Below are positions 53,414-64,000 of a DNA stretch of 64,000 nt, piece after piece. Position numbers and translations under genes: made by a program. This stretch comes from Streptomyces griseoaurantiacus (GTDB lineage Bacteria > Actinomycetota > Actinomycetes > Streptomycetales > Streptomycetaceae), in contig BNBP01000002.1 in assembly GCA_014656015.1 (NCBI GenBank), positions 1 to 64,000 of the forward strand, given 5' to 3'. The notes beneath the pieces are model-generated. The model made no database searches. It saw nothing but the letters and a program-made list of their open reading frames with translations, and was not told the DNA's origin. Numbering within the stretch: the first letter of the stretch is position 1; each line of letters begins with the position of its first letter.

Positions 53414-54295
53414 GTGAAGACAGAGCCGAATTCCGGCAGCCTCATGGGGGCCACGGTCTCCGGTTTCGAGTTAGCCGGCGCCTCGGACGCCGACCTCGCG
53501 GAACTGAAGGCCTCCCTCTACCGACACCGCCTCCTGGTCCTCAAGGAACAGCACCTGGAGCCCAAGGAGTTCGTGGCCCTGGGACGCGCACTCGGCACCA
53601 TCGAGGTGTACTACGAACCGATGTACCACCACCCGGAACACCCGGAAATATTCGTATCGGGGACGAAGCCGGGCGACAGCACCGAAGGTGTGCCGCAGAC
53701 CGGCAAATTCTGGCACGCCGACTATTCCTTCATGTCGAATCCTTTCGGCATCACGATGACGTATCCGCAGATCGTGCCCAAAACGAATCGCGGTACCTTC
53801 TACATCGACATGGCGAAGGTCTTCGCCGAACTGCCCGACCGGCTGAAGGACCGGTTGCGCGGCACCCTCGTCGAGCACAGCCCACGCCGCTACTTCAAGA
53901 TCCGCCCCACCGACGTGTACCGGCCCATCCACGAGGTGCAGGCCGAGATCGAGCAGGTCACCCCGCCGGTCTTCCACCCGACCGTCTTCACGCACCCGGT
54001 GACCGGCGAGGAGATCCTCTACGTGAGCGAGGCCGCCTCGTTCGGCTTCGTCGAGCCCGACGGCACCCGGCTGCCTCCGGAGATCCTCCAGGAAGTGCTC
54101 GAACGCAGCGGACAGCTCGACACCGGCTTCACCGATCCGCACATCCACCTGCAGAGCTTCACCGAGGGCGACCTGCTGCTGTGGGACAACCGGGCACTCG
54201 TGCACCGGGCGCTGCACAACCCCCGTCCGGAGCCCGCCCAGTCGTACCGGGTCACCGTGCACGACGACTTCCCGTTCTTCGGGGTCGCCGGATGA
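53414..54295 (+). CDS. ScoE/Rv0097-type Fe(II)/2-oxoglutarate oxygenase, predicted isonitrile-forming
   Basis: 293 aa, TauD/TfdA fold. The iron facial triad is H101-x-D103 in GKFWHADYSFM and H264 in NRALVHRALHN, with the 2-oxoglutarate Arg R279 in QSYRVTVHDDF. Beyond the general fold it carries the YYEPMYHHPEHPEIFVS block (residues 66-82), R126, K162 (RRYFKIRPTDVYRP) and H268. In spacing these match residues recalled for ScoE (R157, K193, H299), the enzyme that oxidatively decarboxylates an N-carboxymethyl-beta-amino acid to an isonitrile. GTG at 53414. It overlaps the next gene by 4 bp (ATGA). Confidence 0.85.
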   Translation: MKTEPNSGSLMGATVSGFELAGASDADLAELKASLYRHRLLVLKEQHLEPKEFVALGRALGTIEVYYEPMYHHPEHPEIFVSGTKPGDSTEGVPQTGKFWHADYSFMSNPFGITMTYPQIVPKTNRGTFYIDMAKVFAELPDRLKDRLRGTLVEHSPRRYFKIRPTDVYRPIHEVQAEIEQVTPPVFHPTVFTHPVTGEEILYVSEAASFGFVEPDGTRLPPEILQEVLERSGQLDTGFTDPHIHLQSFTEGDLLLWDNRALVHRALHNPRPEPAQSYRVTVHDDFPFFGVAG

Positions 54296-54819
54296 TGCCC
54301 CAGCAGCTTGCCACCGACCGGGAACTGCTGGACGGCGTGCTGCGGCCCTACCGGGACCACAGCCGGTACCTGCGGGAGGCCGAGGTGACCGGACGCCCGG
54401 ACACGGTGAGCGCCCGGGGCCGGTTCGGCATCGCGGAGTCCTGCTACATCGACGACACCGGCCACTTCAACGCGGTCGAGTTCAACATCTGCTACAACCA
54501 GCTCGGTTACTACCTCATCGCCAAATGTGTCGAGGACCGGCTCTTCGAGGCCTTCTCCACCTGGACGATGGCGGACTTCTGGGAACGGCAGCTGTCGGAC
54601 GTGCTGATCTACCGGCTCGGCAGCCGATTCCGCCGGATGATCAATCCCCGTGCGTTCGAGGGCGAGGTCGTCTTCCAGGAGCCGCGCGTGTCGGTGCGTC
54701 CGGGCAGACCGGCCGTCATGTCGATGGAGACGACGTGCTCCTTCTGGGACGACGAGGGCGGGTCCGCCGACGGCACCGTCAAACTCGCCTTCACCAGGCT
54801 CCCCCAGCTCACTGCCTGA
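54292..54819 (+). CDS. ScoD/FcoT-type hotdog thioesterase (predicted glycine Michael-addition/thioester hydrolysis)
   Basis: 175 aa. The sequence RFGIAESCYIDDTGHFNAVE (residues 44-63), then NICYNQLGYYLIA, SRFRRMINPRAFEGEVVF and CSFWDDEGGSADGTVKLAF parallels Mycobacterium FcoT (Rv0098), from memory: xGESAYIRSTGHFNAVE, CFNQLAY, SSRFRKPLNP, FWDENGG. In isonitrile lipopeptide pathways the ScoD homologue adds glycine to an alpha,beta-unsaturated acyl-ACP and releases the N-carboxymethyl-beta-amino acid used by ScoE. The ATG at 54292 overlaps the oxygenase stop, so the pair is translationally coupled. The PKS starts 14 bp later. Confidence 0.82.
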   Translation: MMPQQLATDRELLDGVLRPYRDHSRYLREAEVTGRPDTVSARGRFGIAESCYIDDTGHFNAVEFNICYNQLGYYLIAKCVEDRLFEAFSTWTMADFWERQLSDVLIYRLGSRFRRMINPRAFEGEVVFQEPRVSVRPGRPAVMSMETTCSFWDDEGGSADGTVKLAFTRLPQLTA

Positions 54820-54833
54820 GGACAACGAGGAAC

Positions 54834-63296: not shown

Positions 63297-63305
63297 CCGC
63301 CGTCC

Positions 63306-63539
63306 TCAGCCGTTCCCGCCCGGCGTGAAGGTGATCGCGTACCACGGGCAGGCGTCCGCGGCCCGCCGCAGCCCGGCGTGGTCCGCCGCGGCCAGGTCCA
63401 GCCCTTCGGCCGGCCATGCCCGGCGGTCCGCGAGCCGGAAGGCTCCCGGGGCGGCCTCCTGGCAGTGCCCGGTACCGCTGCACAGGCCGTGGTCCACCGA
63501 CAGGCGGGTGCCGTCCGCGCCCCGCAGGACGGCGCTCAC
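63306..63539 (-). CDS. ferredoxin (3Fe-4S type) for the adjacent P450
   Basis: 77 aa. Cluster ligands are visible in HGLCSGTGHCQEAAPGAF and AADACPWYAITF: CxxxxxC, a later C-P, with the third position of the usual CxxCxxC replaced, as in [3Fe-4S] ferredoxins that serve P450s. The GTG at 63539 overlaps the P450 stop (GTGA), so the two are translated together. It passes electrons to the P450 at 63536-64000. It ends 43 bp from the ligase stop, on the opposite strand. Confidence 0.88.
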   Translation of the reverse strand: MSAVLRGADGTRLSVDHGLCSGTGHCQEAAPGAFRLADRRAWPAEGLDLAAADHAGLRRAADACPWYAITFTPGGNG

Positions 63540-64000
63540 CGGCCGGCCCCGGTCGAGACGGGGTCGAACACCATCGGCAGGGAGAGCCAGTTGCGGAAGA
63601 CCGGACCGGGTACCTGCGGGATCTCCGCGCCCGGTTCCAGCCGCAGTCCCGGCAGCCGCCGGTAGAGCGCGGCGAGGGACGTCTCCAGTTCGAGCCGGGC
63701 CAGGTTGACACCGATGCAGTGGTGGATGCCCCAGCCGAAGGTGAGGTGCGGCGGCAGTTCCTTCCAGTCGCGGTCGATGAGGAACTCGTCGGGGCGGTCG
63801 TAGACCTCGGGGTCGTGGTTGGCCGCGGCGGTGACCGTGAAGACCCTGTCCCCAGGGGTGAGCGGGTAGCCCTGGACGGTGGTCTCGCGGGCGCACCTGC
63901 GCCACAGGCCGAGGGCCGGGCCGTCGTACCGGAGGCCCTCCTCCACCAGGCTCGGGGTCAGCCCCTCGATGTCGGCGAGGTACTTCGCCTTCTGCTCCGG
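63536..64000 (-). CDS. cytochrome P450, C-terminal part (gene runs off the right edge)
   Basis: 154 codons are in the window, in frame from base 64000. The reading starts PEQKAKYLADIEGLTPSLVE and continues with the K-helix ExxR in EEGLRYDG. Next comes AANHDPEVYDRPDEFLIDR and the haem-thiolate loop LTFGWGIHHCIGVNLARLEL with the axial Cys. It is a soluble class I bacterial P450, likely to oxidise the polyketide product or a precursor with the adjoining ferredoxin. The start lies beyond the window. Its membership in the cluster is inferred from proximity. Confidence 0.92.
   Translation of the reverse strand, partial: PEQKAKYLADIEGLTPSLVEEGLRYDGPALGLWRRCARETTVQGYPLTPGDRVFTVTAAANHDPEVYDRPDEFLIDRDWKELPPHLTFGWGIHHCIGVNLARLELETSLAALYRRLPGLRLEPGAEIPQVPGPVFRNWLSLPMVFDPVSTGAGR

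Follow-up and report, generated by a model that had tools for sequence, protein, structure and literature searches.

A Streptomyces griseoaurantiacus gene cluster that may prime a modular polyketide synthase with an isonitrile acid

We analyzed the first 64,000 bases (hereafter the window) of the 300,700-base contig BNBP01000002.1, which belongs to the 7.56-Mb genome of Streptomyces griseoaurantiacus (GCA_014656015.1). At 53,414-63,263 it carries a cluster of five plus-strand genes that is likely, judging from its sequence, to form an isonitrile. In order, the genes encode a ScoE-type oxygenase, a ScoD/FcoT-type thioesterase, a type I polyketide synthase (PKS), a lone ketosynthase (KS), called KS2 below, and an acyl-adenylate (AMP) ligase (Table 1). 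An earlier sequence-only reading of the window had described this coupling, and all five proteins have profile matches at the place it gave. We favor a reading in which an isonitrile acid primes the PKS and the docked KS2 ends the chain, yielding a small isonitrile-bearing polyketide; we put it forward tentatively, as plausible rather than probable. The product could be an antibiotic or a metal-binding compound. ScoE-type enzymes are known to contribute to lipopeptides, SF2768-like compounds and the amycomicin/aerocyanidin group. If our reading is true, an isonitrile-acid-primed modular PKS would be a further use of the group, one in which the modules determine extender, reduction and length, and might offer programmable isonitrile handles for bioorthogonal chemistry. 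KS2 raises a question of its own: is a bare docked ketosynthase able to end an assembly line?

The oxygenase is, on well-supported sequence grounds, a predicted ScoE-type isonitrile synthase. It belongs to the TauD family (PF02668, E 1e-33), scores 423 bits against the curated ScoE equivalog NF049937 (cut-off 400), and has ScoE chains as its best solved relatives (6dch, E 6e-106). All 14 residues mapped from an alignment with solved ScoE are kept (window numbering: Tyr66, Tyr67, Tyr71, His101, Asp103, Arg126, Lys162, Arg164, Asp167, Arg170, Glu178, His264, His268 and Arg279). They stand for iron ligands and for CABA- and 2-oxoglutarate-binding residues of ScoE, Arg310 among them. Roles are described for Tyr96, Tyr97, Tyr101, Lys193, Arg195, Asp198, Arg201, Glu209, Arg157 and His299 of ScoE (PMC7949033). 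By the sequence-only reading, a place outside the ScoE clade would have counted against its claim; in a tree of 85 rows the oxygenase lies within an 82-row ScoE branch (support 100), well away from three proteins of the same genome that resemble TauD and fall outside. Its partner is a clear member of the FcoT family (PF10862, 7e-61), with 5wsy (E 8e-51), which we take to be SAV606, and Rv0098 (2pfc) as solved relatives. It keeps 39 of the 40 positions that are near-invariant among 79 relatives. The exception is Ser24, which replaces a Cys; Ser also occurs at this position in the loci L042 and L043, and Cys in L044.

Pfam matches two PP-binding stretches and KS, acyltransferase (AT), dehydratase (DH) and ketoreductase (KR) domains in the PKS, and finds no enoylreductase or thioesterase domain there. 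As in a modular type I PKS, the motifs of KS, AT, KR, DH and acyl carrier protein (ACP) are intact and the ends are docking-like. The motifs include HGVDSL and LGIDSL in the two ACPs, GHSQGE and YASH in the AT, HAVAGTVLFPG in the DH, and TGGLGRLG, LDD and YAAAN in the KR. By the usual rule, which we assume to apply, an AT with YASH is of the methylmalonyl type; the rule for the LDD motif of the KR is likewise taken on assumption. The first domain is an ACP (PP-binding, residues 17-83, with the HGVDSL motif), in line with the sequence-only reading. KS2 is a lone KS with an N-terminal docking domain (PF08990), has neither AT nor ACP, and keeps the catalytic residues Cys190, His325, His365 and Lys360.

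The same set recurs elsewhere. An alignment scan of genome contigs with ScoE yielded 105 relatives; the analysis covers the 80 best, and an FcoT gene lies near ScoE in 80 of these 80 loci (E 1e-10). By gene order, approximately 52 are of the nonribosomal peptide synthetase (NRPS) type, an assignment in which some loci are cut by contig ends and two NRPSs were run through Pfam; 12 carry other PKSs (amycomicin-like and similar), six are cyanobacterial, two are unclear, one has lost the PKS block, and seven carry the same PKS-KS2-ligase set. The seven genomes are those of S. olivaceoviridis, Lentzea xinjiangensis, S. fumigatiscleroticus, S. benahoarensis, S. catenulae, Saccharopolyspora rosea and Saccharopolyspora shandongensis. 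Since the set recurs in seven other genomes from three genera (Streptomyces, Lentzea and Saccharopolyspora), it is more than a chance assembly. A docking-like DEEL or DEQL tail on the last PKS and a docking-like start of KS2 are visible by eye in all eight clusters, and PF08990 is matched in KS2 of the window, L047 and L080. Two modules precede KS2 in S. catenulae, S. benahoarensis and Saccharopolyspora shandongensis; because even these clusters have KS2 after their last module, it stands last in all eight. A P450 follows the ligase in five of the seven relatives (53-72% identical to the P450 of the window), and ferredoxins like that of the window lie beside the P450 in L127, L047, L130 and L132. 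Among 392 sampled genomes of the genus, ScoE is found at E 1e-60 in 32, the present one included. The nearest copy in another genome is 59% identical, and the version in the window is therefore rare among those genomes.

In a KS tree the eight KS2s defined by their context group together (99), away from first-module KSs and ordinary modular KSs; further KS2 rows, from a protein search, were placed in the group by a Gly residue, which makes their place partly circular, whereas the eight context-defined rows are free of this. The eight ligases form one clade (98), adjoining 16 NRPS-type ligases. The Gly in question sits three residues past HTQ, in the loop that follows the second catalytic His, and is present in 8/8 KS2s and in 0/20 other KSs compared. 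Half of the eight KS2s, that of the window included, also have GHG instead of AHG at the first His. Fifteen of the best 120 KS2 homologues carry the Gly signature, and five of these were judged for ScoE context: four are already scanned loci (P0130, P0132, P0135 and P0174), and the fifth, P0129 of S. mirabilis, agrees with the listed ScoE P0012 in organism and in the length of its contig. A JGI-sourced KS2 is 96% identical to that of the window. As a marker of stand-alone KS2s the Gly signature was rejected. A DNA pattern for it, which is unable to match the window KS2 itself (Met-Pro there), matched in 10 of the 392 genomes, as against 4 for a reversed control pattern; the ten matches are seven KSs within large PKSs and three unrelated frames. 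A KS2 profile was also discarded as a detector, because it could not tell ordinary KSs and short KS2s apart. The loop HTQAAGG of several KS2s is found as well in KSs of the large PKSs L137, L138, L140, L142, L143, L145 and L146.

The reactions, the order of the steps, the short-chain starter, the choice of methylmalonyl and the release by KS2 are what we infer for this cluster. The ScoD and ScoE homologues would together turn an enoyl thioester and glycine into a beta-isonitrile acid: the former would add glycine to the enoyl thioester and release the adduct, and the latter would convert this N-carboxymethyl beta-amino acid to the beta-isonitrile acid. In the window cluster the enoyl group may come from the first ACP of the PKS (ACP1), if the ligase charges it, or else from a housekeeping acyl-ACP. 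The ligase would load the beta-isonitrile acid onto the N-terminal ACP, and the module would add one methylmalonyl unit, reduce it and dehydrate it to a 2-methyl-enoyl thioester; were the starter 3-isocyanobutanoate, this would be an enzyme-bound 5-isocyano-2-methylhex-2-enoyl thioester. KS2 would then likely free the chain, either as an acid or by transfer to a small nucleophile, for which CalA3 is the reported precedent, and the P450 and ferredoxin would oxidize the product. Since no PF00975 thioesterase is found on the 300.7-kb contig (15 matches genome-wide), KS2 is the natural candidate for release.

CalA3, from the calcimycin assembly line, is described as an ACP-less terminal module in which the KS releases the chain by amidation or hydrolysis, Leu437 being needed for amidation (PMC10006239). 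We infer that the PDB sequence 8i4y is CalA3, in which C197 and H332 fall at the numbers of that paper. CalA3 and KS2 are alike in being terminal, docked and ACP-less, in keeping Cys-His-His, and in two further positions, the Gly of the loop described above and the GHG around the first His.

The relatives also bear on how the line is fed and what leaves it. A KSIII gene lies beside ScoE in five of the eight clusters (L047, L054, L080, L092 and L104), and in the last four it is joined by a small separate ACP, as in the NRPS-type cluster of the same genome as the window; ScoD there would have its own enoyl carrier, leaving the PKS free to use the finished acid, which favors loading of the isonitrile acid onto the PKS. 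UbiD in two relatives and a methyltransferase in three others suggest release as a free unsaturated acid. The UbiD proteins follow the P450s and are of the BagN/FevL kind, with 754 and 708 bits (below the model cut-off of 1000); in Lentzea a UbiX accompanies UbiD. Neither a UbiD nor a methyltransferase lies near the window cluster, and the single UbiD match of its genome is distant and on another contig. In L126 (1166-5510) and L127 (1104-5943), two P450s and UbiD come after the ligase, with UbiX as well in Lentzea, a possible path to isonitrile alkenes.

Several observations weigh against the reading that we favor. With L080 queries, neither a KSIII nor a separate ACP was found at 40-80 kb of the window contig or around L042, L043 and L044, and in the window cluster and in L043 and L044, its two closest relatives, the enoyl supply must thus come from elsewhere. 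The ScoD homologue reaches 212 bits against the curated model NF049938, short of the cut-off of 250. This cut-off seems fitted to the NRPS-type branch: of nine other FcoTs, six also fall below it (L042, L043, L044, L045, L047 and the amycomicin-like L069), while L050, L070 and L080 pass. PF08990 was not listed for the KS2s of Lentzea and S. catenulae, and the KS2-type Gly is present too in seven large PKSs of other genomes. All seven related loci were found through ScoE, so that the link between KS2 and ScoE is there by choice and KS2 clusters without ScoE would escape. CalA3 retains an inactive AT-DH-KR and has Leu437-Thr438, whereas KS2 consists of the KS alone and has the usual Phe-Gly at these positions, and in a profile search KS2 is nearer to the KSs of DEBS and Lsd14 than to CalA3. 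The idea that KS2 is a simple relative of CalA3 is weakened by this search, the likeness being one of layout and two positions and not of family membership. Finally, the Cys-His-His-Lys set retained in KS2 would permit an ordinary condensation as well.

On this last point rests another view of KS2, as the maker of a further carbon-carbon bond: the diketide on the second ACP of the PKS (ACP2) and an extender on ACP2 or a housekeeping ACP would be joined to give a triketide diene acid. The solved sequences nearest to KS2 are mostly ordinary extending KSs, and the UbiD enzymes of the relatives would presumably suit conjugated acids. We nevertheless consider this rather unlikely, given that KS2 has neither AT nor ACP and, in the three clusters with two modules, still comes by itself behind the second, which is a terminal place and not that of a second module; moreover, with no PF00975 thioesterase on the contig, a further extension by KS2 would leave release unexplained. 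A different order of events is also conceivable. The sequence-only reading had offered two routes, and in the second of them the PKS makes an alpha-methyl-enoyl thioester on ACP2, to which ScoD would add glycine before ScoE forms an alpha-methyl-beta-isonitrile acid. We keep this route, though we think it improbable. The lack of KSIII and separate ACP in the window cluster and its two closest relatives would suit it, and a PKS-fed CmiS1 is reported for cremimycin (PMC11284099). The comparison of loci nonetheless favors the first route: KSIII stands beside ScoE/ScoD in five relatives that share the PKS, KS2 and ligase, a beta-isonitrile acid would be ill suited to a UbiD that works on unsaturated acids, and KS2 would be left without a role.

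It is a good deal less probable that the ScoE/ScoD pair makes some other group, e.g., a beta-amino or N-carboxymethyl acid starter, and that the product holds no isonitrile. CmiS1-type enzymes do serve beta-amino acid starters too, according to PMC11284099, and the ScoD homologue lies below its curated cut-off. However, the same source gives an FAD enzyme as the partner oxidase for beta-amino starters, where the window has a ScoE that passes its cut-off with all checked residues, and the ScoD of the amycomicin-like L069 is likewise under the NF049938 cut-off. That the cluster is decaying and makes nothing appears very improbable: a relative, Streptomyces sp. NRRL F-6676, has lost the entire block from PKS to P450, yet here all five reading frames are uninterrupted and retain the motifs that were checked, and the JGI-sourced KS2 mentioned above is 96% identical.

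The favored reading, an isonitrile acid loaded onto the PKS, can be set against known systems. The isonitrile lipopeptide clusters (sco, Rv0096-0101) have homologues of ScoE, ScoD and the ligase in the same order as the window, together with a separate ACP and a condensation-adenylation-thiolation-reductase (C-A-T-R) NRPS. The window lacks both of the latter; its ligase would instead feed the N-terminal ACP of the PKS, with the lone KS after it. No NRPS with a condensation domain lies beside its ScoE, ScoD and ligase genes, and the absence of an NRPS noted in the sequence-only reading extends to the whole 300.7-kb contig, which has none of the 18 genome-wide matches to the condensation domain PF00668. 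Cremimycin biosynthesis (CmiS1/CmiS2; PMC11284099) likewise has a PKS, and next to it an enzyme of the FcoT family that joins glycine to an enoyl thioester, much as we propose here, and an FAD oxidase then leads to a beta-amino acid; the window has a ScoE homologue in place of the oxidase.

Isonitrile enzymes, P450s and PKS-type genes are joined in the amycomicin and aerocyanidin clusters, according to PMC13273461. Seven of our loci with the order ScoE-P450-ScoD-PKS (L048, L051, L068, L069, L081, L113 and L114) are assumed to be of this type. Relative to the window, their PKSs are 35-41% identical (best segment) and their P450s 28-34%. In L048 and L069 the AT has HAFH, presumably of the malonyl type, and no N-terminal ACP motif was found. 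The KSs of the amycomicin-like loci fall outside both the KS2 group and that of the first-module KSs (KS1), and KS1 lies away from the PKSs of L045, L048, L069, L086 and L109, which together make up one fork, in a tree that holds such loci and not the amycomicin cluster itself. The sequence-only reading knew of no characterized cluster with the design of the window. A search of open-licence papers by titles and the starts of abstracts turned up no ScoE/ScoD cluster with a modular PKS and a lone KS; the link between isonitrile and PKS as such, on the other hand, is already known from amycomicin and aerocyanidin (PMC13273461). ScoE/ScoD with an NRPS is well known. New here, within the literature searched, is the combination of a modular PKS loaded at its N terminus and a terminal KS that stands alone.

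The assembly line and the isonitrile pair appear to differ in descent. The ScoE proteins of the eight clusters and of F-6676 occupy three places in the tree: the window, F-6676, S. olivaceoviridis and Lentzea in one, S. fumigatiscleroticus in another, and the other four inside the NRPS-type branch. In approximately unbiased (AU) tests on 38 rows, carried out with the first trees already in view, a single clade of the eight clusters is rejected for ScoE (p-AU 1.1e-8) and for ScoD/FcoT (p-AU 0.020). The trees are quick searches without bootstraps, and those of ligase and FcoT took in 17 of the approximately 52 NRPS-type loci. As the ligases form one clade and the KS2s group together while ScoE and ScoD do not, one assembly line has been paired more than once with isonitrile-makers. 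Either the PKS-KS2-ligase set would have acquired ScoE/ScoD repeatedly or the pair would have been exchanged. This pattern suggests that the assembly line goes with an isonitrile-maker of whatever descent.

Streptomyces sp. NRRL F-6676 appears to offer a natural deletion. Its draft genome aligns with the window contig in three blocks over 50,488-54,828 (80-85%) and again from 65,077 (83%); in between, 94 bases replace 10.2 kb, and 54,829-65,076, which runs from the start of the PKS to a point upstream of the P450, is missing as a single block, for which misassembly is a possible cause. ScoE and ScoD are retained (L042, 10031-11511), and PKS, KS2, ligase, ferredoxin and P450 are lost together. 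No close KS2 is present elsewhere in that genome (best E 8e-100, as against 2e-214 in S. olivaceoviridis). We regard F-6676 as a natural loss that left an orphan isonitrile-acid pair. The deletion places the right-hand border of the set and connects the P450/ferredoxin pair with it.

It is conceivable, if doubtful, that these clusters represent a whole family of modular lines, spread over Streptomyces, Lentzea and Saccharopolyspora, that start from a beta-isonitrile acid and finish with a docked stand-alone KS of a new class instead of a thioesterase, some of them decarboxylating the product to isonitrile alkenes.

Genes were called with a codon-score script made for this analysis and not taken from an annotation, and start codons were checked; for the PKS, the ATG behind GAGGA was chosen over the gene caller's own start at 54870. 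The five genes are tightly packed: neighbors overlap (by 4, 11 and 4 bases) at every junction but one, where 14 bases lie between them. Right of the ligase come a divergent ferredoxin and P450, then genes for a PaaX-type regulator and an arginine deiminase, the two that were named with Pfam past the P450. The sequence-only reading had pointed to the right flank for further biosynthetic genes: the ferredoxin/P450 pair, reaching past the window, was found there, and the contig holds no PF00975 thioesterase, no NRPS condensation domain and, in a whole-genome search at E 1e-80, no PKS besides that of the window and the lone KS. To the left lie an aldo-keto reductase and an alcohol dehydrogenase, which are probably plain neighbors because they are present too in F-6676, without the PKS block.

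Table 1. Features of the cluster and its right flank (positions on the contig, which are also those of the window)
Feature	Position	Strand	Evidence
ScoE/Rv0097-type Fe(II)/2-oxoglutarate oxygenase-decarboxylase (predicted), 293 aa, GTG start	53414..54295	+	NF049937 423 bits; ScoE 6dch E 6e-106; 14/14 residues
ScoD/FcoT-type thioesterase, 175 aa	54292..54819	+	PF10862 7e-61; 5wsy E 8e-51; NF049938 212 bits; 39/40 positions
Type I PKS ACP-KS-AT-DH-KR-ACP, C-terminal docking-like tail, 1829 aa	54834..60323	+	Pfam, motifs
N-terminal ACP of PKS, proposed ligase loading site	54879..55079	+	PP-binding, residues 17-83 (protein read from 54831); motif HGVDSL
KS2, stand-alone ketosynthase with N-terminal docking domain, 479 aa	60313..61752	+	Pfam ketoacyl-synt, Docking PF08990
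ScoC-like acyl-adenylate ligase, 504 aa	61749..63263	+	AMP-binding, AMP-binding_C
Ferredoxin, 77 aa, likely P450 partner	63306..63539	-	Fer4_15
Cytochrome P450, 419 aa	63536..64000 in window, start at 64,795 of contig	-	p450 PF00067

Some further observations come from the wider set of ScoE loci. KSIII lies near ScoE in 51 of the 80, mostly of the NRPS type, where it may supply an enoyl precursor or be a spare copy of FabH, the target of amycomicin. The cyanobacterial ScoE/FcoT pairs (L115-L119 and L121) have a ligase upstream and a different layout. A gammaproteobacterial metagenome-assembled genome (L111) combines ScoE and FcoT with PKS-like sequence, beyond Actinomycetota and cyanobacteria.

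The genome of the window has a second isonitrile cluster, of the NRPS type (L147; contig C76, 1604-12764), with genes for KSIII, ACP, ScoE, ScoD, ligase, an ACP-sized protein, a C-A-T-R NRPS, a periplasmic metal-type binding protein and transport-like proteins. Isocyanide hydratases belong to the DJ-1/PfpI superfamily, and a gene of the DJ-1/PfpI family (L147, 132-752, plus strand) that adjoins this cluster could serve in self-protection.

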